From the IMG/VR virus record IMGVR_UViG_3300033149_006548, positions 1-22,228 of that record: a DNA stretch of 22,228 bases; one strand, given 5' to 3'. The notes under the pieces are model-generated. The model saw only the letters and a list, made by a program, of their open reading frames with translations. It had not been told where the DNA came from and ran no database searches. Each line of letters starts with the position of its first letter. The stretch's first letter is position 1. Positions 8,431 through 22,018 of the stretch are shown piece by piece. This DNA comes from a virus. A program made the translations under genes and the position numbers.

Positions 8431-8782
8431 CTAAATCAATGGCTGTAAATTCAACCTTTTTCTTTCCAAGAAGAGCCAACGTACCACTGACATCCAAAAC
8501 CTTAACCTGTTGACCATAAGGAGTAGAATCCAAACCCAACCCATCCTTTCCAAAATAGGTAACTGAAGCATCATCCGTCTTCTCAGACTTAGCCTGTCTT
8601 TCTCTGATGGCAACAAGATGTGCCGAAAGCCATCTTTCTATCTCCTTCAGAAAATCATCTCCTAAATTCGCTGAAGCCAACTGATCTGTTACCACCAGGT
8701 TGGCAGCCTGAATAAATGGCCCAACATCTATTGATGTCTCTATTATTTGCTTCACCTCTGAATCAGTCACTCGTGCTGACAT
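8423..8782 (-). CDS. Head-tail connector (gp6-like neck) protein
   Basis: The 119-residue protein resembles phage head-completion connectors that follow the capsid gene: VTDSEVKQIIETSIDVGPFI, then NLVVTDQLASANL, FLKEIERWLSAHLVAIRE, DASVTYFGKDGLGLDSTPYG and a GTLALLGKKKVE ending. Helical N-terminal half plus the DASVTYxGKxGxGLDxTxYG motif are typical. It would bind the portal ring. AGAGG lies nine bases before the ATG, and the start overlaps the sulfotransferase by 20 bases, so it is read on the same transcript as the modification cassette. Confidence 0.82.
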   Translation of the reverse strand: MSARVTDSEVKQIIETSIDVGPFIQAANLVVTDQLASANLGDDFLKEIERWLSAHLVAIRERQAKSEKTDDASVTYFGKDGLGLDSTPYGQQVKVLDVSGTLALLGKKKVEFTAIDLDL

Positions 8783-9530
8783 TTTTATTGCCTCTATTCC
8801 AAAGTTTAGGTTCTACAAATGCTTTTACTTCTTCAAACTTCCATTCCAAACCAAGAGCATTGATAACTCCTTGTATCTGAGAAAAATCACCATTGATCAT
8901 ACGCTGGGGCCAGACCTCTCTTATATCTAACTTCTGTTCATACATTTCTTCAAATCTTTTCTCATGCACAGAAACCCAGTAAAGCCAACCGGATCGTTTT
9001 CTAAAGGCACGCATGAAGGAAGTACGGAGACATGACCTAACAATGTCTTCTGCATCTCTTCTAACAATAATCCACTTGGCTTTTGGAAACAATCCATGCC
9101 AGACAGGCCAAATCAAACACATCTTGGCTCCTTTATAGAACCAACTTCCTCCCTTATACCCTTGGCTTTTCAAAATATCCAACAGGCTCTTATACCACAA
9201 AGCAATTAGCCTATCGTTAACCGAAACAAACCTGTTTCCTTTTCCGAAACCAATTAAAATCGGGTCATTGCCCTGCAAGTTACGTCTTATTCTTGGCAAT
9301 GGCTTCTGTCCCATAGGGTCGCATCCAGCATCTCTAAGAAAGGGCTTAACCAAATCATTTCTTATTCGGGTATTTTCAAACATCCCTCTTCGGTTAAACC
9401 TTGTAGGACCAGACAATTCCCCTCCCCAGGCCCCACACATATTAATAATTCCCGCTACCATTGATGTGCCTGACCTTGCACAACCAGTGATCAATATAGG
9501 ATTGGCTATTTCCAGTTCTTCTTTACCCAT
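8763..9530 (-). CDS. Sulfotransferase family protein
   Basis: This 255-residue protein has both PAPS-binding elements of sulfotransferases: the 5'-phosphosulfate loop TGCARSGTSMVAG (residues 15-27) and the 3'-phosphate segment KWIIVRRDAEDIVRSCLRTS (152-171), with Arg158 and Ser166 in the expected places. It is expected to move sulfate from PAPS to a hydroxyl or amine of a glycan or protein; the acceptor is unknown. It is the last enzyme of a chain of overlapping glycan genes and overlaps both neighbours. Its presence inside the head-neck operon suggests sulfation during virion assembly, which is inference. GAGGTG lies upstream of ATG 9530. Confidence 0.85.
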   Translation of the reverse strand: MGKEELEIANPILITGCARSGTSMVAGIINMCGAWGGELSGPTRFNRRGMFENTRIRNDLVKPFLRDAGCDPMGQKPLPRIRRNLQGNDPILIGFGKGNRFVSVNDRLIALWYKSLLDILKSQGYKGGSWFYKGAKMCLIWPVWHGLFPKAKWIIVRRDAEDIVRSCLRTSFMRAFRKRSGWLYWVSVHEKRFEEMYEQKLDIREVWPQRMINGDFSQIQGVINALGLEWKFEEVKAFVEPKLWNRGNKNVSTSD

Positions 9531-10186
9531 CTCTCTTTCACCTCGTGAGGTCTCGGTTTTCCATGAAACGCAATAAACCTTGCTCCTTCTGGAAAAATAC
9601 CTTTGCCTCTACAATGCCTCTTATAACCTACCAATTGCCCTGGGTATAGATCCTGCCAGCGATCCTTACCTTGCACTAACTGCTTATAAACAAGCCTTTC
9701 TTTTCCTCCTTGTGTTCTCCCCGCCCAACCTTTTGGATCTTTATTAATGTTCTTCCAAAGATACTCCCCGTAACCTACTTCAAAGGAAAGAAAACCACCT
9801 CCAATATGCGTTCTTCCTTTCCGAAACGGTTTAATACCACAAAAAACTCCACCATAAGAAGCCATCTCATCCAACGAACCAACAATAACAGTATCCAAAT
9901 CCATAAACAGAATGCGTCCCTCCAAACCATTATCAGGACAGTACATATAAAACTTTGGGAGATTAAGTGGCCAAGACAGGATCTCCTGCGGAATGATCTT
10001 AACATCAAACAGCTTTTCACTATCTCCAATTTCCAGAGCATGTTCTTGATCTGTAAACAGAACAAACTGGAAGGGTAAAGACAGGTGTCGGTTTACCATA
10101 TTAAATAATTTGTAAACATATTCTACTCCACGACCAGCTCCCCACCCATTCCACAACATGGTTACCACTGTCAATGTTTTATGCAT
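9506..10186 (-). CDS. GT-A type glycosyltransferase
   Basis: The 226-residue protein begins with a Rossmann-like strand (TLTVVTMLWNGWGAGRG), has LPFQFVLFTDQ, and an ILFMDLDTVIVGSLDE segment in which DLD (residues 96-98) is a DxD metal/nucleotide-sugar motif. C-terminal FHGKPRPHE (207-215) is typical of a group of bacterial and phage transferases near GT8. Sugar donor and acceptor cannot be read from sequence. It overlaps the previous gene by 16 bases and the sulfotransferase by 25, so the enzymes are probably made together. Confidence 0.83.
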   Translation of the reverse strand: MHKTLTVVTMLWNGWGAGRGVEYVYKLFNMVNRHLSLPFQFVLFTDQEHALEIGDSEKLFDVKIIPQEILSWPLNLPKFYMYCPDNGLEGRILFMDLDTVIVGSLDEMASYGGVFCGIKPFRKGRTHIGGGFLSFEVGYGEYLWKNINKDPKGWAGRTQGGKERLVYKQLVQGKDRWQDLYPGQLVGYKRHCRGKGIFPEGARFIAFHGKPRPHEVKERWVKKNWK

Positions 10187-10887
10187 TTGCGGTACATCTC
10201 CCTATCATAATCAAGATTATTGCTCCCAGGATAATTCTCATCTTTATATCCAAATTCCAATGCTCTGGCTGCAAACCTATACTCCTCTTTATTGAAACTG
10301 TCGAACAAACCAAGCAGCTGCTGATGATATTTTTTAAACTGCCCAGAGCTGTTCTTTTTCCTCGCCTTTGCCCCCCTGACATAGAAACGCCTGAAAATTT
10401 GAAAGGTGCTCGGCTGATCAAAATGGGTACCAATAACAACACCATCCTTCCACAACCTAACATGCTGATATCCTTTTTTCTCTGCCCTAAGAGCGGCTTC
10501 AAAGTCATCCCCAAGCAAGTCCTTTCTTTCAAACTTTTTCACCACCTCAGTATTGACAACGGCGGCACAACAAATAATCTGATTGAGAAAAAGATCAAAC
10601 AGACCAAAGCCCCACTGATAGACGTCCAGGCTTCGTATTGGGGGGTAGGTATGCTCATAAATCAAAGAGTATGCTTCTGGATACAGAATCATATCTCCCG
10701 CAAGCAACAATGCTCTTGAATACTCCAACGCCCTAATTGCCTGATTCACAGCTTTGGAAATGGGAATAACATCTCTTATTTCTGAGACTTTATCAAACTC
10801 CAAAGCATATACAGAATCCTGACAATCTCTCAGCTGGGGGTCATCAGTAGCAATTATAAATACCTCAATCCCTGGTCTTGGCCTCAC
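10171..10887 (-). CDS. Probable glycosyltransferase (GT2-like)
   Basis: From GTG 10887 the protein has 238 residues. It starts IEVFIIATDDPQLRDC, a GT-A-type first strand, has LLLAGDMILYPEA (GDM at 64-66 in the DxD position) and GDDFEAALRAEKKGY (from 126), which resembles the acceptor-side acidic motif of GT2 enzymes. A C-terminal basic helix (RRFYVRGAKARKK) follows. I chose GTG 10887 over ATG 10941 because GGAGG lies seven bases upstream and the GTGA overlap with the acyltransferase stop is a coupling arrangement. The longer version would begin deep in the previous gene. Substrates are unknown. Confidence 0.72.
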   Translation of the reverse strand: MRPRPGIEVFIIATDDPQLRDCQDSVYALEFDKVSEIRDVIPISKAVNQAIRALEYSRALLLAGDMILYPEAYSLIYEHTYPPIRSLDVYQWGFGLFDLFLNQIICCAAVVNTEVVKKFERKDLLGDDFEAALRAEKKGYQHVRLWKDGVVIGTHFDQPSTFQIFRRFYVRGAKARKKNSSGQFKKYHQQLLGLFDSFNKEEYRFAARALEFGYKDENYPGSNNLDYDREMYRKCIKH

Positions 10888-11468
10888 AATCTTTCCTCCA
10901 CAGGAACAATTCCTTGTCTTTTTGCTTGCTTGCCAAACCAAACCTCATTCTCTCCAATTTCTTTCGTTATAATTGCTCCAGCTCCTACCATTGCATTCTT
11001 ACCAATAACTACTCCTGGCATAATCAGAGACCTTGCTCCTATACGACAACCGTCTCCAATGGTGGGTCCTAATAGCGTCTGCTTCAGAGGCCGTCCATGA
11101 GAACTTATCTTCCACTCATTTATTAAAGTGACACAAGGCCCAAAGTAACAGTTTCTACCAACAGTGGCATAAGCGGTTACGTGACACTGCGACTGAATTG
11201 TCGTCCCTTCCCCAATAGTGGTCTCTCTTTCCACCACTACAAGATGACCTATAACACAATTATCTCCAATCACAACACCACTACGTATTACAGAGGAATG
11301 GCCAATAAAAACATTTTTTCCAATGATGACATCCTCATCAATAATAACGTTTTTTCCTTTCTTAAAATAGTCCCCTACTTTGACAGAAGGATGAATAATA
11401 CCACCATCAAACGAAAGGTTCTTGGACTGACCGTCACGATATATCTGTATTGACGTTTTCTTTGACAT
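10884..11468 (-). CDS. Left-handed beta-helix (hexapeptide) acyltransferase
   Basis: The 194-residue protein is built of hexapeptide repeats from about residue 26 to 165 (VIIDEDVIIGKNVFIG, VVIGDNCVIG, TTIGEGTTI, LIMPGVVIGKNAMVGAGAII). An INEWKISSHGRPLKQT loop (116-131) interrupts the coil near the expected active site; His96 and His124 are candidate catalytic residues. This is the fold of sugar O- and N-acetyltransferases of the WbbJ/PglD/WlbB type, which act on nucleotide or lipid-linked sugars. AAAAGGAG lies upstream of ATG 11468. It supports a modified sugar as product of the cassette. Confidence 0.87.
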   Translation of the reverse strand: MSKKTSIQIYRDGQSKNLSFDGGIIHPSVKVGDYFKKGKNVIIDEDVIIGKNVFIGHSSVIRSGVVIGDNCVIGHLVVVERETTIGEGTTIQSQCHVTAYATVGRNCYFGPCVTLINEWKISSHGRPLKQTLLGPTIGDGCRIGARSLIMPGVVIGKNAMVGAGAIITKEIGENEVWFGKQAKRQGIVPVEERL

Positions 11469-11703
11469 GATAACTCCTTTTCTTCAGTTTATCTTCCATA
11501 CGTTTTGCCATATCAAATGCCATAGCCGTCAACTTCATTATCTTGGCAGCCAACCTTGGATCGATACCAACGAGCTGCGTCTCACAAAGCCTATAAATCC
11601 TACGATGCACCTCGCAAATAGTTGGAAGCAACTCACCTGAACCTTCTATCCCCTTGGCTAACTTGGGATTGCGATATTCTGGATCAATTTTATATTTCAT
11701 CAT
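11434..11703 (-). CDS. Small helical protein of unknown function
   Basis: I do not recognise a named family. The 89-residue protein is mostly helical and basic: ICEVHRRIYRLCETQLVG, then LAAKIMKLTAMAFDMAKRME. It begins three bases after the preceding stop (TGAATGATG), so reinitiation is likely, and either of two adjacent ATG codons may be used. It overlaps the acyltransferase start by 35 bases. Similar small proteins occur in phage structural regions, but its link with glycan modification is only positional. Confidence 0.6.
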   Translation of the reverse strand: MMKYKIDPEYRNPKLAKGIEGSGELLPTICEVHRRIYRLCETQLVGIDPRLAAKIMKLTAMAFDMAKRMEDKLKKRSYHVKENVNTDIS

Positions 11704-11916
11704 TCACCCAAGTTCTTTTATTGTTATCTTGCCATTTGGCCTAACTGCTATAACCTTGAACTGGACCTCCTGCCCAAATGTGTCTCTCATGGTTATACGT
11801 TGTCCAGACTTTAAATGAAAAACTCTGGCCTCTGCACCTCTCAGAAGCACTTCCACTCCTTTTTGATCAAAGGGAACTGCCTCCTCCTCCATACTATTAT
11901 ACGTCGTTGCTTGCAT
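11704..11916 (-). CDS. Small beta-rich protein of unknown function
   Basis: The 70-residue protein has an acidic N-terminus and then strands VEVLLRGAEARVFHLKSGQR, ITMRDTFGQEVQFKVIAV and KITIKELG. That suggests a small barrel, perhaps an SH3- or KOW-like fold, but no family is recognised. A very strong GGAGGAGG site precedes ATG 11916, inside the end of the upstream gene, which it overlaps by 20 bases. It sits between the DUF115-like gene and the acyltransferase and is expressed with them. Confidence 0.6.
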   Translation of the reverse strand: MQATTYNSMEEEAVPFDQKGVEVLLRGAEARVFHLKSGQRITMRDTFGQEVQFKVIAVRPNGKITIKELG

Positions 11917-12562
11917 TTATTACCTCCTCCAATGAGACAAAGGGAAAAACATCAATTGCCGACCCTGGAGTTGCATTGAGTATCTCAAGCCCCAACTTCT
12001 CAGCGTCCCTCGCAATTGTTGGATAACAAGCCAGAAACCTGTCATAGGGATCTTTCTGTGGATTAGGATGATCATCATGCCAGTTAGCCCTTCCTTCAAC
12101 CCTCCGCATATCAAATCCAAGAAGAACAACTCTCTTAGCTCCAAGGTGGTAAGCAAGGTTTATTGCGCTTGACCCACTGCACCTATTCCAGGAAACAACA
12201 TGAGGATTGGTTTCAATTCCCATCGGTTTACCACGGGACAGGCGTTTTAACCATCCAACCTTATCCAGACGATTAGCACAGTGGACTCTCAGACCAGCAA
12301 AGGATAATAACTTCTCACTGTGCCAATCAAACCAACGTGCATCTGTAAACCAACAGATATCAATCCAAGCACCCAATTGATAGGCATTATTAATCCCAAT
12401 CACCCTCTCATTTTTTATTAGGCTTAGATTTACCTTTTGTAGTCCTGGCCCCCCTCCTATGAGATATACGGTCCTTCCTGGCCAAATTTTCGGTACCTTC
12501 CACCTTGGAGGGGCTGGTCTCTTCCTGTTCTGGCTCCTGTTCGTCGTTCTCTCCTTCAACAT
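11897..12562 (-). CDS. DUF115/MAF-like Rossmann protein ('norphogenetic protein' type)
   Basis: After a basic N-terminal stretch of about 30 residues, the protein has VYLIGGGPGLQKVNLSLIK (32-50), VIGINNAYQLG, ICWFTDARWFDWH, CSGSSAINLAYHLGAKRVVL and a C-terminal NATPGSAIDVFPF. This matches phage proteins annotated as norphogenetic protein and resembles the MAF/DUF115 family that transfers sialic-acid-like sugars. A sugar-related role is inference. ATG 12562 has AAGGA eight bases upstream. The frame overlaps the previous gene by 155 bases, and since the conserved GGGPG block starts inside the overlap the overlap seems real. Confidence 0.68.
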   Translation of the reverse strand: MLKERTTNRSQNRKRPAPPRWKVPKIWPGRTVYLIGGGPGLQKVNLSLIKNERVIGINNAYQLGAWIDICWFTDARWFDWHSEKLLSFAGLRVHCANRLDKVGWLKRLSRGKPMGIETNPHVVSWNRCSGSSAINLAYHLGAKRVVLLGFDMRRVEGRANWHDDHPNPQKDPYDRFLACYPTIARDAEKLGLEILNATPGSAIDVFPFVSLEEVINASNDV

Positions 12563-12998: not shown

Positions 12999-13970
12999 TT
13001 AACTATAGTGTACAATGCCTGACCTGTTATTCTGGTCGTTACGAATCTGAGGAACCATAATAGCCATAACCTTGAAATTGGCTTGCAATCCTCCTTCGCT
13101 GTCCCACTGGACCGTGGTGACATCAAGTCCATTAACAAGACGAACCACATCAGAAGTCATCTGTGCCAGGACCACATTGTCTGCTGACAGGAAATCGGCT
13201 ACCTTAATATCCGATAGCCCTGCAATCTCAAGCAACCTGGTTCTAACAGATTTATCCGAATTGGATTTGAAATCGTCATCAATGGCAGATTCAAAGTTAG
13301 AAGGGATATAAAGCACCCAAGGCCCATAATGACGAGCATCAATAGAAGCCTGTTTCATGGAAAGAACATCTGTAAGGATTGTCTCGCCAGTGGCTGCGCT
13401 ATCATCCCAATGAGCAGTCAGGTTACCTGTATTTCTCTGGGGCGCATCCGTATACCCATAAATCGTTCCTCCGCCAAAAGTATATGTATCTGAGCCCTGG
13501 AACAGAATGGTTTCAGCCTTCTCCGCCACCTTCCTTGCCGCAAGTTCTGCCGTTGTAGTATCCAACGGCATACTTCCTGCCCTGCTCTCCTTAATTTCCC
13601 TAACGGAAAAGGAGAAATCCTTATGAATAATGGGCAGTGGAATATAATTAATACCATACTTCGGACGGTCTCTCTGTCCCCTACTAAGTCCGTCCATACT
13701 CATATCGGCATCTTCGATATCAGATGCATCCTGCCAGGCCAGCACTGTCTTGGCAAGACCATTAGGAATATCATAGGTTAATCCTCGACTCTGGAGATCT
13801 GCAATACCAAGCAACCTCTGTTGCGCAGCCTTTAGAACAGCAGCATCAATGGTCTTCCATTCATCATAGAGCAAGACATCATTTGTTCGCAAAGCCTTGG
13901 CATCAAAGTTAGCTTGCAGAAGTCTCATTGCAACATCACCAACAGCTTTTCCTTTGTAAATAAAATCCAT
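12999..13970 (-). CDS. Major capsid protein (HK97-fold, DUF6260/encapsulin-like)
   Basis: The 323-residue protein matches the encapsulin-like/DUF6260 capsid group: TNDVLLYDEWKTIDAAVLKA near the N-terminus, GLTYDIPNGLAKTVLAWQDA, YINYIPLPIIHKDFSFSVRE-type E-loop/spine region (INYIPLPIIHKDFSFSVREI), AARKVAEKAETILFQGSDTY, and a C-terminal VVRLVNGLDVTTVQWDSEGG with FKVMAIMVPQIR. No N-terminal delta domain is evident, so scaffolding is probably separate. ATG 13970 is preferred over TTG 13976, since GGAGG is ten bases upstream, the same spacing as for the decoration gene. Confidence 0.88.
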   Translation of the reverse strand: MDFIYKGKAVGDVAMRLLQANFDAKALRTNDVLLYDEWKTIDAAVLKAAQQRLLGIADLQSRGLTYDIPNGLAKTVLAWQDASDIEDADMSMDGLSRGQRDRPKYGINYIPLPIIHKDFSFSVREIKESRAGSMPLDTTTAELAARKVAEKAETILFQGSDTYTFGGGTIYGYTDAPQRNTGNLTAHWDDSAATGETILTDVLSMKQASIDARHYGPWVLYIPSNFESAIDDDFKSNSDKSVRTRLLEIAGLSDIKVADFLSADNVVLAQMTSDVVRLVNGLDVTTVQWDSEGGLQANFKVMAIMVPQIRNDQNNRSGIVHYS

Positions 13971-14023
13971 AGCCAAATTACCTCCTTCACTTAAATTTTT
14001 ATTGTGTTAAAAAGTTACCTTTC

Positions 14024-16924: not shown

Positions 16925-17191
16925 TTACCAATCCACCCAAACCCCTGTTTCACCATACAGGGTACACATGGCAAGTTCAAAGTGCGTCTTGCTTTCCAAT
17001 GGAGAGGCAAACTCCTCCCTAAAATCATCAATCTCTTGGCTCTCTGGTATCTTGAAGACCCTGTTGGTAGACAGATATTCTTCTATATCCAATACCAGAG
17101 AATCGTTAGGAAAATCCACAGAAATTTCCTTCTTCTTCTCATCATACTTAACGAACCCTTTTTGTTTACCTTGTGATATTTTAACCTTCAT
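16925..17191 (-). CDS. Small conserved phage head-region protein
   Basis: The 88-residue protein has VKYDEKKKEISVDFPNDSLV, a VLDIEEYLSTNRVFKIPESQ segment, and a C-terminal HFELAMCTLYGETGVWVDW. The IPESxxIDDxR and FELAxCTLYxxTGVWVDW motifs recur in small proteins next to MuF-type head genes; no function is known to me. It starts in an ATGA overlap with the end of the MuF gene, so it is made from the same message. Confidence 0.72.
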   Translation of the reverse strand: MKVKISQGKQKGFVKYDEKKKEISVDFPNDSLVLDIEEYLSTNRVFKIPESQEIDDFREEFASPLESKTHFELAMCTLYGETGVWVDW

Positions 17192-20100
17192 TTAGATCTC
17201 CGTGCAAATTTATTTCCAAACATATCATCAATAAAGTCTGTCAACTCAGGATACCTTTCTTTAGCTTTTGCCCAACCAGAAACTCTGGCTGCCCAGACAT
17301 CTCTTCCTTCTTCAGCTAATTTATCTGCTTTTGCCCTCATTGATTTAGCATAAGGATCAGTAATTCCTCTTCTCTTTTCAACACGGGAGGCTTCTCCCAA
17401 GAATTGTTCCAACTGTTCATCGTATTTTATCAAACTTTGTCGATATTTCGTATACCGTTGACAGTTCATTGCCCACCACTCAGAACCAACCCCTGATTTA
17501 CCAGTATAAATTCGCCCTTCATAATCATCAATCCAATTATCCTTCCAATAGTAACCATCCCCGTTGGTATACTTTCCTTTTACTCCGGAATGCTTTTTAG
17601 TGAAAAGACTCCGGAATCTTTTTCCTTCCTCCTTGGTCACAAACAAATTATCTTCCCATTGAAAACCTGTACCTGCCTTATACCATCCCCCTTCGAGAGT
17701 CCGATTAAACACAAGATCGTCAATGGCATGAGACATTTCATGACCTATGATATCAAAGGTATCTCGCCCATCCAAAACAATTGTAGGTGAATATGGATCG
17801 GTCTTATATGACGCCCGGATCCGCTGTTTCTTAATCGTAACCCGTAGGTTCCTCTCCTTCAGCGTATCTAATATATCAAAAGGAACCCAATCAGTCCCCT
17901 TCTCAATCTTCTTCATCGTAGACGTCGGGACCTTGGTCTTCCCTTCAATCTCAAACAACTTCCGGAGAATAGACTGTCTTTCAAGTCGATATTCATCCTT
18001 CGACATGGTCATCACATATTCATAATAAGCCTTTCTCTCCTCCAGATGCAGGGCACTCCTTTTCGAGAAGTCAGTTTCTGCTTTATACTTATTCTTTGCT
18101 GTTTCCCATTTCTTTTTCGCTCCGGCTTTATCAACAGAAGGTTTCTTAGGTACTGTCACAACTTTGCCCGGCTTCCCTTCTGCAGGAATACCCTTTGCTT
18201 TAGGAGGAGCTTTCAATGGAAATTCCTTTTCCCCAGGAAGCTTAACCAAGGGAAGAGCCACGCATCTGCAATTATGAATCACAAAACCATTTGCTATATA
18301 ACTTTCATCGTCTTCGACAGACAAATTGTATAACGTCAGGGCCTTTCTCACGACCCATTTCTCTAAGGATACTATCTTTAATTTCAAGAATTCATAATCT
18401 CCAATATGATTGGAAAATACCCTTAACAGTTCTTCCTCAATTTCCTCTAAACATTGATTAATTTTTGTTCCTGTATAACGTAAAACAAACCATCCTTCTT
18501 TTTCAATTCTCTTCTGCCGAATAATATCTTGTCTCTTATCTCTGTGCCAATATTCTCCGTCACATTCAATAACAATTCTGAGAGCGGGAATGGCAAAATC
18601 GACATTATATCTCAATATAGGGTATTGAAACACATATTTTATCCCTAATTTATCAAGAAGAAAACTCATTCTCTCCTCAATCCAAGTCATCTTTCCACTT
18701 TTCCTATGCTTCGCCATTCTGGCATTTAATCTCTTCTCGGGATATAATTCATATAATTCATTCAAAGATTTTTTCATTCTCTCGACATTATTGGGATCAT
18801 GCATAGGATTATTCTTCCTCATTCTAACAGAAGAAGCCAACCTCATCTCAGGAGTATTCGTTAAATGTCTTCCTTTTTCTCTAATCTCTTCCTGTTGTAA
18901 AACCCATCTCCCTTTTTTCACAAGTTGTCTGCAAGCTTCATTTGCTTTTTTTGTTATTCTATATCTATCTCTCTTCCCTTGCACAGAGGCTTTATTGGAT
19001 ATATTTTTTCTATGTTCCGGATTTGCCCACTGCCTATTTGCCCCCCATCTATGTTCACAAGATCGAGAGCAAAATTTCTTATAATAAGGAATTAGACAAT
19101 CGCATTGTTTACACTTACCTGCCAAATAATGAATCTCATTTCCTACCACAATGTCCCTGGCAGAGACCCAATTACCATCAACAAGAATAGGATGATCAGC
19201 GGTAACAGACAATCCCATCTGTCCAGTCCTTCCAAATCTAAACCGAACAGCCTCAGGCCTCTGTTTTGGAGTCTTATGTAATTGTATAACTTTTTTAAAT
19301 CTTCCTTTGTGAGTGAGAACTAAATCTCCCACTTCGACATCTTTTATTTTCTTCCAACCTTTAGAAGTATATATTTTAACTTGGCCGTCAATAAGGCAAT
19401 TCGGATGCGCAGGTATCATGTTCTCAATCTTATCAACTGTAAATATCTCTCCCTCCAGAGAAGCACAAATTGGACAAACACCAACCCCAGCAGTGCTCCA
19501 CTCTGCCTTGACTTTGACCCCTTCCACCTGAGCATCCCTATATTCTTGTACCGTTGCGGAATGATGAGCTCTAATTACTTCTGTCCGTGCCATGGTTCTT
19601 GCCCTCTGAATGGAGGTCATCCGCCTTACAGTATCTCCAGGAAGTTTAACCTTTATAGACGGTAAGGAAATTTGTTGGTTTAATATCCGTGCAAGCTCTC
19701 GAGGATTTCTGCCTTCGGCCAACCCTTGAGCAAGAACTCTGCTGATGGCTTGGTCCATCTCCCTGTCAATGCCCTTCAACTCATTGAATGTCCGGGTAAA
19801 CAACAAACCGACTCTCTCTGCATGAAAGGGTTTATTGAACATAGCACTCATTGCTTCCTGTGAACTATATGCAGGTATGTCGACCCCAGCATTTCTCAAT
19901 TCATGGCGCCCACGTAATATCCCCTTCTGATACGCTGATTGGATATAGATATCAGACCAAGCCCCAGTACCTCGTGCTAACCCGGGACGCCGTACCATCT
20001 GAAGGATACTTCTTTCCTCCATCTCATTCAGCCAATCCATAAATCCATCTACCTTACCAGCAGAGGTTCGAAAGGCAAACTGTTTCGCTTGTATCGTCTT

Positions 20101-20442
20101 GAGTGCTTCTTCAAAGGCCAATAATTGTTGTTTTTTCATCTCGGCTATTTGCCACGTCCTAAGAGACTCAACCCCCCTGGGTATTTCAGCAAGGCCAATA
20201 ACGGATTCTTTCTTCAATCCAAACACGTCGAGGTCAACGATAGCAGCAGTTATCAATCTCATCAGCCACCGAAACCTACGATCAGAATCTTGGACAAACG
20301 CCTTTCTCAGCGTTGTGGTCCTGGACGGATCAAGGTTCAGAACTGTATTAATGGATATCACAGATCCGGTTATCGCCTCTGGTATTGACCGATATTTCAA
20401 TACTGATGCTATCATTTTTCCGTCCACTTGGTTTCCTCTCAT
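17188..20442 (-). CDS. MuF-type head morphogenesis protein with intein and metallopeptidase-like C-terminus
   Basis: The open frame has 1084 codons; removal of the intein (residues 349-724) leaves 708. The N-terminal extein is a Mu gpF/SPP1 gp7-type minor head protein: a helical region, MARTEVIRAHHSATVQEYRD, CPICASLEGEIF (C323, C326) and HPN/CRC (H346-N348 with C725-C727). The C-terminal extein adds a Lys/Ala-rich linker, a helical segment (SALHLEERKAYYEYV) and a domain with IIGHEMSHAIDDL (H901, E902, H905) and GSEWWAMN (E988), which fit a zinc metallopeptidase-like site. It follows the portal by 74 bases; GTG 20427 with AGAGGA is an alternative start. Such proteins are packaged in small numbers near the portal. 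Confidence 0.88.
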   Translation of the reverse strand: MRGNQVDGKMIASVLKYRSIPEAITGSVISINTVLNLDPSRTTTLRKAFVQDSDRRFRWLMRLITAAIVDLDVFGLKKESVIGLAEIPRGVESLRTWQIAEMKKQQLLAFEEALKTIQAKQFAFRTSAGKVDGFMDWLNEMEERSILQMVRRPGLARGTGAWSDIYIQSAYQKGILRGRHELRNAGVDIPAYSSQEAMSAMFNKPFHAERVGLLFTRTFNELKGIDREMDQAISRVLAQGLAEGRNPRELARILNQQISLPSIKVKLPGDTVRRMTSIQRARTMARTEVIRAHHSATVQEYRDAQVEGVKVKAEWSTAGVGVCPICASLEGEIFTVDKIENMIPAHPNCLIDGQVKIYTSKGWKKIKDVEVGDLVLTHKGRFKKVIQLHKTPKQRPEAVRFRFGRTGQMGLSVTADHPILVDGNWVSARDIVVGNEIHYLAGKCKQCDCLIPYYKKFCSRSCEHRWGANRQWANPEHRKNISNKASVQGKRDRYRITKKANEACRQLVKKGRWVLQQEEIREKGRHLTNTPEMRLASSVRMRKNNPMHDPNNVERMKKSLNELYELYPEKRLNARMAKHRKSGKMTWIEERMSFLLDKLGIKYVFQYPILRYNVDFAIPALRIVIECDGEYWHRDKRQDIIRQKRIEKEGWFVLRYTGTKINQCLEEIEEELLRVFSNHIGDYEFLKLKIVSLEKWVVRKALTLYNLSVEDDESYIANGFVIHNCRCVALPLVKLPGEKEFPLKAPPKAKGIPAEGKPGKVVTVPKKPSVDKAGAKKKWETAKNKYKAETDFSKRSALHLEERKAYYEYVMTMSKDEYRLERQSILRKLFEIEGKTKVPTSTMKKIEKGTDWVPFDILDTLKERNLRVTIKKQRIRASYKTDPYSPTIVLDGRDTFDIIGHEMSHAIDDLVFNRTLEGGWYKAGTGFQWEDNLFVTKEEGKRFRSLFTKKHSGVKGKYTNGDGYYWKDNWIDDYEGRIYTGKSGVGSEWWAMNCQRYTKYRQSLIKYDEQLEQFLGEASRVEKRRGITDPYAKSMRAKADKLAEEGRDVWAARVSGWAKAKERYPELTDFIDDMFGNKFARRSK
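18271..19398 (-). mobile_element. Intein with Vsr/DUF559-like homing endonuclease
   Basis: The intein has 376 residues, from Cys349 to Asn724 of the host frame. Block A is CLIDGQVKIYTSKGWKKIKD; block B is LSVTADHPILVDG with T414 and H417; blocks F and G are NLSVEDDESYIANGFVIHN, followed by Cys725. All catalytic splice residues are present, so splicing should work. Between them lie a zinc-type cluster (C444, C447, C458, C462), NUMOD3-like segments (QWANPEHRKN, NNPMHDPNNVERMKKSLNE) and a nuclease with WIEERMSFLLDKLGIKY, VDFAIPALRIVIECDGEYWH and D639. The nuclease resembles Vsr/DUF559 PD-(D/E)XK enzymes; there is no LAGLIDADG or HNH motif. Confidence 0.92.
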
Positions 20443-20516: not shown

Positions 20517-21926
20517 CTATTCTTCTCCTTCCTCTTGTATACCACTTGCCATCTCGCTTGCTGCACCAAACTCGGCTTCCATAGCAGTTTCGATTTCAGA
20601 TATATCTTCATCATCATAACCCAAATGCTTCTTCAGAAAAAACCTTTCTGGAATGAGCATCTCCGCCCCGGGCGCAGAAAGATATTTGCTTAGAACTTCC
20701 ATCCTGGCTTTTTCTACCTCTGCTTCCTCCTTCTCTGATAGAGCTAAAAGAGGGGGCCATTCAACCGAGTAACCATCTTTCGGTTCCGGAAGCACACCTA
20801 CTGAAATCAATCTGTCAATGAAAGGTCTTAGAATAACAGGTTCGCAAAATTCCTCTCTTCGTTCCGAAACTCGACTGTTCCACGCCTTTTCATCCTGACT
20901 ACTTGCAAGCTCTCCCCTTTCCGATCCCAACAAAATACGTTGAGGAATACCTGTTGTGCCTGAAATGAGCTTAATCAACATCTCAAAATGTTTGCTTGGA
21001 TCGGATACCTGGGGGGATAACTCTTGGATATCAATCCCTCGTAATCTCATATATCTCTGAAGATTATGCATGTAGTTTTGAATTTCAGTCTCGAGATCTT
21101 CCAATTCCTGGGTACCAAAATCTGCATCGGCATCAGCCTTCAACCCAAATCCCGGAAATGCTCCTCGCCAGAACATCTCGGCAGAACCGCCAGCAATCAG
21201 ATCAAGATCCTGCAGTCTATTCAGGATAGCTTTCAATCTGGGGGTGCCGTACACATCATCTCCTGTTAGTTCCTCAGCAACATGAATGACCCTTGAATGG
21301 TGTACTGCACGGGTAAAAGAACCGGCCTCTCTCCTTACCATATTAAGATTGTAAAGCTCTGGCAGATTATAACGCCGACTGCCTGTTTCATTATCCCAAC
21401 TTCGAATGGATGCATTCTCTTCATTATATGGAAAAAGATACAGGAGCTCTGAGGCCTTCTCCACAGGTTCTTTGAAATTTTTTCCGTCATTAAAACCCAA
21501 AAACAAGACGCCATACCTCCCAATACCACTAATCTTATCTGCCCGCTGAAGATAATGCCAGATATGAAGCCTCTTCACCAAATCCCTCCAGGCAACTTCA
21601 AACTCGGTCTCCTCCCCAATACTTTCAGTTATAATGGGTTTTTTTCTCCAACAGGCACTTGGATAAGCATTAACAATACGCTTCGCAATATCTCCTCTAT
21701 CATACCTTGCCGCATAGTCATTAAATGACGGGGTCTTAGTATATCCAAGCACTGTATATAGATCTCGATCAGTACCAAAAGACTTTCCTAACCTATCAGC
21801 GTATCCGGCCCGTTCAACCATCATGGATGCCAAGGTCATAAACATGCGTCTCTGCAATGCCTTCACATCTTCCTCTTCCTTCTTTTCCTTTTCGTCTCTT
21901 AGCGCTGTAACCTTTCTCTTTGCCAT
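20517..21926 (-). CDS. Portal protein (DUF1073 family)
   Basis: The protein has 469 residues with the start at ATG 21926, chosen because AAGGAG lies eight bases upstream; a longer frame to 21965 would absorb that site. DUF1073-type portal features appear in order: YTKTPSFNDYAARYDRGDIA, IVNAYPSACWRKKP, RADKISGIGRYGVLFLGFND, RVIHVAEELTGDDVYGTPRL, GGSAEMFWRGAFPGF, and GTTGIPQRILLGSERGELA in the crown/stem region. The portal forms the dodecameric ring through which DNA is packaged. It lies between TerL and the MuF gene. The gap 20443-20516 holds no convincing gene. Confidence 0.92.
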   Translation of the reverse strand: MAKRKVTALRDEKEKKEEEDVKALQRRMFMTLASMMVERAGYADRLGKSFGTDRDLYTVLGYTKTPSFNDYAARYDRGDIAKRIVNAYPSACWRKKPIITESIGEETEFEVAWRDLVKRLHIWHYLQRADKISGIGRYGVLFLGFNDGKNFKEPVEKASELLYLFPYNEENASIRSWDNETGSRRYNLPELYNLNMVRREAGSFTRAVHHSRVIHVAEELTGDDVYGTPRLKAILNRLQDLDLIAGGSAEMFWRGAFPGFGLKADADADFGTQELEDLETEIQNYMHNLQRYMRLRGIDIQELSPQVSDPSKHFEMLIKLISGTTGIPQRILLGSERGELASSQDEKAWNSRVSERREEFCEPVILRPFIDRLISVGVLPEPKDGYSVEWPPLLALSEKEEAEVEKARMEVLSKYLSAPGAEMLIPERFFLKKHLGYDDEDISEIETAMEAEFGAASEMASGIQEEGEE

Positions 21927-21956
21927 CTGAGATCTCCTTACCTTTGAAATCCTAAT

Positions 21957-22018
21957 GAGAATCAATGTTTTCGATTTTTTAATACTTTGTACATGACACT
22001 ATATAAAGATTGATTCTC
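21957..22018. repeat. 10-bp perfect inverted repeat between terminase and portal
   Basis: GAGAATCAAT at 21957-21966 and ATTGATTCTC at 22009-22018 are exact inverted copies flanking a 42-base A+T-rich spacer. The pair sits in the only sizeable non-coding gap near the head genes (21927-22078), between the TerL stop and the portal ribosome binding site. It could be a paired protein-binding site or a weak hairpin. It lacks the G+C-rich stem and T-run of an intrinsic terminator. Confidence 0.6.

Follow-up and report, generated by a model that had tools for sequence, protein, structure and literature searches.

A class 1 intein with a putative EDxHD homing endonuclease interrupts the conserved motif of a viral MuF-type head protein

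The window analyzed here, a stretch of 22,228 nucleotides of viral DNA (IMG/VR record IMGVR_UViG_3300033149_006548), carries on its minus strand a gene for a MuF-type minor head protein, which is interrupted by an insert of 376 amino acids. Sequence profiles, alignments, and a structure model together confirm this insert as a class 1 contiguous intein with a putative homing endonuclease of the EDxHD type. The best explanation, in which we place high confidence from comparison of the sequences, is that of a mobile element that would be spliced out of the MuF precursor and copied into intein-free alleles of the gene. The features concerned are the following (all on the minus strand).

17188..20442, minus strand: interrupted MuF-type minor head protein gene (1084 codons plus stop; PF04233, phrog_758)
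19399..20442, minus strand: N-extein, residues 1-348, ending in ...IPAHPN (in L059 and L060 the aligned part runs up to HPN, with CRC next)
19465..19476, minus strand: CPIC (C323, C326) of the MuF Cys/His cluster, both Cys being invariant in the extein alignment
18271..19398, minus strand: contiguous intein, 376 aa, ORF residues 349-724 (profiles, alignment, AlphaFold model)
19114..19398, minus strand: N-terminal half of the HINT domain, intein residues 1-95, with Cys1 and T66xxH69 (HINT folds, Z up to 19)
19057..19113, minus strand: four-Cys cluster C96xxC99...C110xxxC114, invariant in 19 inteins
18694..19056, minus strand: helical linker, intein residues 115-235 (AlphaFold helices, partly of low confidence)
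18400..18693, minus strand: EDxHD/Vsr/DUF559-like nuclease domain, intein residues 236-333 (E241, D267, E278, D280, H285, D291)
18271..18399, minus strand: C-terminal half of the HINT domain, intein residues 334-376, ending in VIHN (TIGR01443, alignment, model)
17188..18270, minus strand: C-extein, starting with CRCVALP, its C-terminal domain common with the intein-free L059 (alignment)

The Interrupted Head Protein Gene

The host gene belongs to the MuF/SPP1 gp7 group. Residues 232-349 of the ORF match the Pfam domain Phage_Mu_F (PF04233, 2.8e-11; 44.6 bits against a cut-off of 29.6), the domain contains the CxxC...HPxCRC motif, and the portal gene (20517-21965, minus strand) adjoins the MuF gene, which it precedes within the phage head module. 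The whole ORF also matches PHROG head-morphogenesis families (phrog_758, head morphogenesis, 3.6e-29), and C323, C326, and H346 are invariant in the alignment of MuF N-exteins. When the two exteins were searched against solved structures, the N-extein gave no match and the C-extein marginal ones only (E of 0.013 or worse).

Several observations concern the surroundings of this gene. The portal protein has its best likeness in the haloarchaeal phage Hardycor1 (42%), and the major capsid protein (12999-13976, minus strand) in the Brevundimonas phages StAshley and MaInes (41%). The C-extein domain, which has no significant Pfam match, contains an HExxH motif, HEMSH (residues 901-905; window 17728-17742, minus strand), with the counterparts HEFAH in the intein-free L059 and HEFGH in the C-terminal part of the Hardycor1 MuF; judging from this motif, the C-terminal part of MuF would be a metallopeptidase-like tail. 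Between the head and tail genes (8763-12562, minus strand) lie sulfotransferase, hexapeptide acyltransferase, and sugar-transferase-like ORFs, the last recognized by eye, a block suggesting that genes for the modification of surface sugars lie within the structural module.

Splicing Anatomy of the Insert

The insert interrupts the CPxC...HPNCRC motif of MuF between HPN and CRC. The initial annotation had placed an intein at 18271-19398, i.e., residues 349-724 of the 1084-residue ORF, and these coordinates turned out to be exact. All the residues that it named are in place, those of the Cys/His cluster and of splicing (C323, C326, H346, C349 as Cys1, T414xxH417, H723-N724, C725, and C727) as well as those of the nuclease (E589/E590, D615, H633, and D639). 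The marks of a class 1 intein are therefore present, i.e., Cys1, the TxxH of block B, the His-Asn end, and Cys+1. Indeed, the 1084-aa protein matches Intein_splicing (PF14890) at 7.1e-7 and the intein C-terminus model TIGR01443 at 1.4e-7, above its cut-off. Such matches, together with those to DUF559 and Phage_Mu_F, lie far outside chance. Cys1, T66, H69, H375, and N376 do not vary among 19 aligned inteins, whose identity goes down to 31%, and the 29 invariant columns of this alignment include splicing and nuclease residues. Moreover, Cys+1 is found in 31 out of 31 aligned C-exteins of about 80 aa or more.

An AlphaFold model of the insert (pLDDT 83) builds a HINT domain from its two ends, with the predicted nuclease fold nested between them and the linker as the weakest part. 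The HINT part resembles the HINT domains of Hedgehog, RecA, gp41-1, and others, with Z up to 19. It is on the profile matches, the invariant splicing residues, Cys+1, and the HINT fold that the identity of the intein rests. The intein is AT-richer than its host gene (35.6% GC against 46.0% and 42.0% in the exteins), and its closest relative displays 62% identity.

We propose that the MuF gene would be transcribed and translated whole, after which the ends of the insert would fold into the HINT domain and excise themselves by means of Cys1, the TxxH block, His-Asn, and Cys+1. Ligation of HPN to CRC would then restore the Cys/His cluster (CPIC...HPNCRC) in a head protein of a predicted 708 aa. 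We infer splicing of the precursor from the established biology of inteins; head assembly may plausibly depend on it.

The Nested Nuclease

The second half of the initial annotation concerned a nuclease of the Vsr/DUF559/EDxHD type, and this assignment is borne out. DUF559 is matched at 1.8e-12 with the 1084-aa protein and at 5.4e-13 with intein residues 237-327, the Vsr matches in Pfam being weaker. With phmmer, the nuclease domain finds I-Bth0305I (3r3p, 1.4e-4), and also 3hrl and Vsr; Foldseek aligns its modeled fold with I-Bth0305I (E 2.7e-5; TM 0.82, normalized by target length), and 3hrl matches it too (Z 14.7). E241, D267, and H285 line up with the segments IEKR, DF, and WHH of Vsr (1cw0). 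Catalytic equivalence was checked against Vsr only, the solved I-Bth0305I chain having Ala where D267 and H285 align. In the 19 aligned inteins, E241, D267, E278, D280, and H285 are invariant, and position 291 is Asp in the window intein and, by eye, Asp or Glu in the other rows. The domain thus combines the Vsr/restriction-like fold with E, D, H, and D in the order of the EDxHD enzymes.

This domain is a relative of Vsr. We rejected the Vsr mismatch-repair enzyme itself because the full-length Vsr model is far under its cut-off (TIGR00632, 30.5 bits against 97.85), and PF03852 is also below cut-off.

The four-Cys cluster upstream of the nuclease is probably a zinc-binding module that contacts DNA; C96, C99, and C110 are also conserved at 90% or more in a second intein alignment. 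The helical linker that follows it is probably an extended DNA-binding region. The NUMOD3-like segments described initially were not confirmed by Pfam: the window protein has no significant match to NUMOD3 there, and one of the 61 aligned inteins matches it. Cys cluster, linker, and nuclease would together form the homing endonuclease nested in the HINT domain.

Intein-Free Alleles

A search with the N-extein alignment gave 80 MuF loci, of which 67 run uninterrupted through HPxCRC and 13, which represent about 8 distinct alleles, have an insertion exactly there. Apart from the named phages, all the relatives are metagenomic contigs or draft genomes. The nearest intein-free relatives of the window virus are 72-79% identical to it over the N-extein tail. 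In one of them, L059, both exteins are matched in a single uninterrupted ORF of 843 aa (IPAHPNCRCVALPV), with 74% identity to the window N-extein over residues 20-348 and 79% over the last 258 residues. L060 is likewise intein-free through HPNCRC, up to its short C-terminus. The placement of the insert at HPN|CRC of a MuF protein, as initially proposed, is thus confirmed by alleles that read through this motif, and homologues in which the 376 residues form an ordinary part of the protein were not found: the insert-bearing loci have intein blocks.

These alleles also bear on the possibility that the insert is an ordinary domain inserted in MuF, or else an autoprocessing domain of the Hint type (BIL- or pretoxin-like) that would cleave without ligation. 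The weak matches to PT-HINT and Hint_2 could be read in this way, but the invariance of Cys+1 in all the aligned C-exteins (about 80 aa or longer), the nested nuclease, the conserved C-extein, which is part of one protein in the intein-free alleles, and the cleanness of these alleles make such a reading hardly credible. A Hint- or BIL-only identity was rejected on account of Cys+1, the nuclease, and the intact intein-free alleles.

A presence/absence pair was found in viral contigs of a relative with a related intein, distinct from the window virus. L266, with the intein, and L275, without it, have the C-extein in common, and the 4187 bp upstream show 98.8% identity between them; they differ by a clean insertion of 1173 bp at the HPxCRC site, which can be a gain or a precise loss. 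The single codon before the site is also different (AAT versus TCC). A second region of difference is located 3' of MuF (about 900 versus 290 bp). In another pair, which involves a different intein type, L250 and L260 show full identity starting about 300 bp upstream and going outward, and mostly 78-90% identity in the last ~300 bp beside the insertion; this lowered identity looks like a co-conversion tract. Finally, L235 is a natural nuclease deletion (173 aa) in which the splicing blocks are intact.

Mobility of the Intein

Trees of the intein and of the N-extein were compared for 23 viruses; each rejects the other (AU p 8e-13 and 7e-77), and they agree in 2 out of 20 splits. This disagreement indicates that the inteins move between MuF genes. 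The DNA flanking the site is kept mainly where the CAY CCN / TGY MGN TGY codons demand it, as expected of a homing target in a motif that the host cannot change. When two viruses share one cell, the nuclease would cut the intein-free MuF allele at the DNA that codes for HPN|CRC, and repair of the cut allele would copy the intein across. The sequences themselves show the anatomy, the intein-free alleles, the clean presence/absence pair, the conserved catalytic residues, and the tree incongruence; cleavage and homing in the cell are deduced from what is established for inteins and homing endonucleases.

The same data could in part be explained by an intein that splices but whose endonuclease is inactive on DNA, with vertical descent and a presence/absence pattern created by losses. 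Members at the same site that are nuclease-deleted or mini-inteins (L235, L222) are in line with this explanation, as is the distance between the window intein and its best relative (62%). We nevertheless consider it unlikely: the active-site residues are invariant in the 19 aligned inteins, a detectable DUF559 domain is kept in 50 out of 61, the intein and host trees are strongly incongruent, and the presence/absence difference is clean in DNA that is 98.8% identical.

A different role would be that of a control of head assembly, in which the intein has been adopted by the virus and splicing times the competence of MuF. Because the intein lands in a Cys/His cluster, splicing might be redox- or zinc-sensitive; the cluster that it splits is invariant, and the excision rate has been proposed as a regulator of head morphogenesis for the Methylococcus MuF intein (PMC517821). 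On the other hand, most MuF relatives are devoid of any intein and near-identical viruses differ in its presence, so that the intein is dispensable, and an intein that needs Cys+1 is expected to insert at conserved Cys. We therefore give this role little credence, and retain the mobile intein with a homing endonuclease.

Insertion Points of the Intein Clan

Among the 61 aligned inteins, Intein_splicing is matched in 59, DUF559 in 50, and LAGLIDADG instead in 5; Phage_Mu_F is matched by 39 of 59 N-extein tails. The clan occupies five insertion points in MuF, which were classified by eye according to the residues that flank them.

Point 1: upstream FHxxR|C (L023, L172)
Point 2: first Cys of CxxC (L025, L027, L183, L204, L064)
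Point 3: second Cys of CxxC (L210)
Point 4: first Cys of CxC (most inteins, including that of the window)
Point 5: second Cys of CxC, which is two codons past the usual site (L171, L174, L189, L200, L206)

All four Cys of the cluster have thus served as Cys+1. One MuF gene (L170:3501-5174) even carries two inteins: a mini-intein of 129 aa occupies the first Cys of CxxC, and the first Cys of CxC holds another, with a nuclease. They are set apart by 29 extein residues, and the 558-aa match at this locus was for this reason rejected as a giant intein. Inteins of the same clan were also seen in uracil-DNA glycosylase-type genes (L062, L065, L203), at NTVK|CRPP, NAVS|CRPP, or NVVK|CWPS.

The inteins at the second Cys of CxC do not form a single group (rejected at p-AU 7e-5), which implies that the insertion point shifted repeatedly. 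Pairs of second-Cys and first-Cys inteins on starred branches (L034/L174, L165/L171, and L199/L200) require at least four changes between the two Cys of CxC, on a tree whose bootstrap is not fully settled. Each shift can be either a new insertion or a slide by two codons, and with TGY codons at its two ends the element could slip in this way. We tentatively suggest, as a possibility that we hold with more doubt than conviction, that inteins land preferentially in the MuF Cys/His cluster and that the clan slid there repeatedly, on four occasions or more, by exactly two codons from the first Cys of CxC to the second, through TGY microhomology at both ends. In any case, the insertion-site pattern of this clan is unusual.

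Significance and Comparison with Known Systems

These elements are contiguous inteins of one viral clan and bear a Vsr-type homing nuclease, whose target is the conserved heart of a head-assembly protein. The occurrence of alleles with and without the intein in nearly identical genomes offers a natural experiment on homing between viruses. The clan can help in learning how EDxHD enzymes entered split inteins, and it bears on whether intein insertion points slide between neighboring Cys; if true, the slide within CxC would mean that inteins can move by sliding. Moreover, the HINT parts may serve as splicing tools.

Both MuF inteins (2004) and Vsr-like homing nucleases (2009) were already known. 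In the Mu-like prophage of Methylococcus capsulatus Bath, an intein was described in Mu gpF, i.e., MuF (Ward et al. 2004, PMC517821). Like the window intein, it is located inside the head-assembly protein, and a link with head morphogenesis was already proposed, but it is without a recognizable endonuclease and resembles archaeal IF-2 inteins (PMC517821). Gordonia phages Barsten, Lennon, Sitar, and others carry MuF inteins at the same point as that of the window (IN|C...HN|CRC in Barsten), under product names that make no mention of an intein. The Barsten intein (gp15; L002, 3001-3825) has HINT ends related to those of the window intein (36-37% over 102 aa), but it is a different intein of 275 aa, in which no DUF559 or known endonuclease domain was detected. 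The main text of Kelley 2016 makes no mention of an intein in MuF or in a capsid protein, and one paper that deals with both inteins and DUF559 describes a DUF559 gene beside inteins. A contiguous intein with an EDxHD nuclease, the focus of such inteins on the MuF Cys/His cluster, and the use of multiple neighboring points were not found in the limited literature searched.

The intein nucleases described are mainly LAGLIDADG and occasionally HNH. The window intein has in common with the canonical LAGLIDADG inteins (PI-SceI, TliVMA, PhoVMA) a HINT domain with a nested homing endonuclease, but the nuclease superfamily and the DNA-binding parts are different. Dassa et al. reportedly found in 2009 a family of Vsr-like nucleases between the halves of split inteins ("fractured genes"), and Taylor et al. 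are said to have characterized I-Bth0305I as an EDxHD homing endonuclease in 2011. With both, the window intein shares the nuclease fold, the E...D...H...D order, the phage setting, and the extended DNA-binding linker. The known members of this type lie in group I introns, are free-standing, or reportedly stand between split-intein halves, whereas here the nuclease is nested in a contiguous intein. As a family, the EDxHD/Vsr homing nucleases are well established (PMC3943268; PMC12350094).
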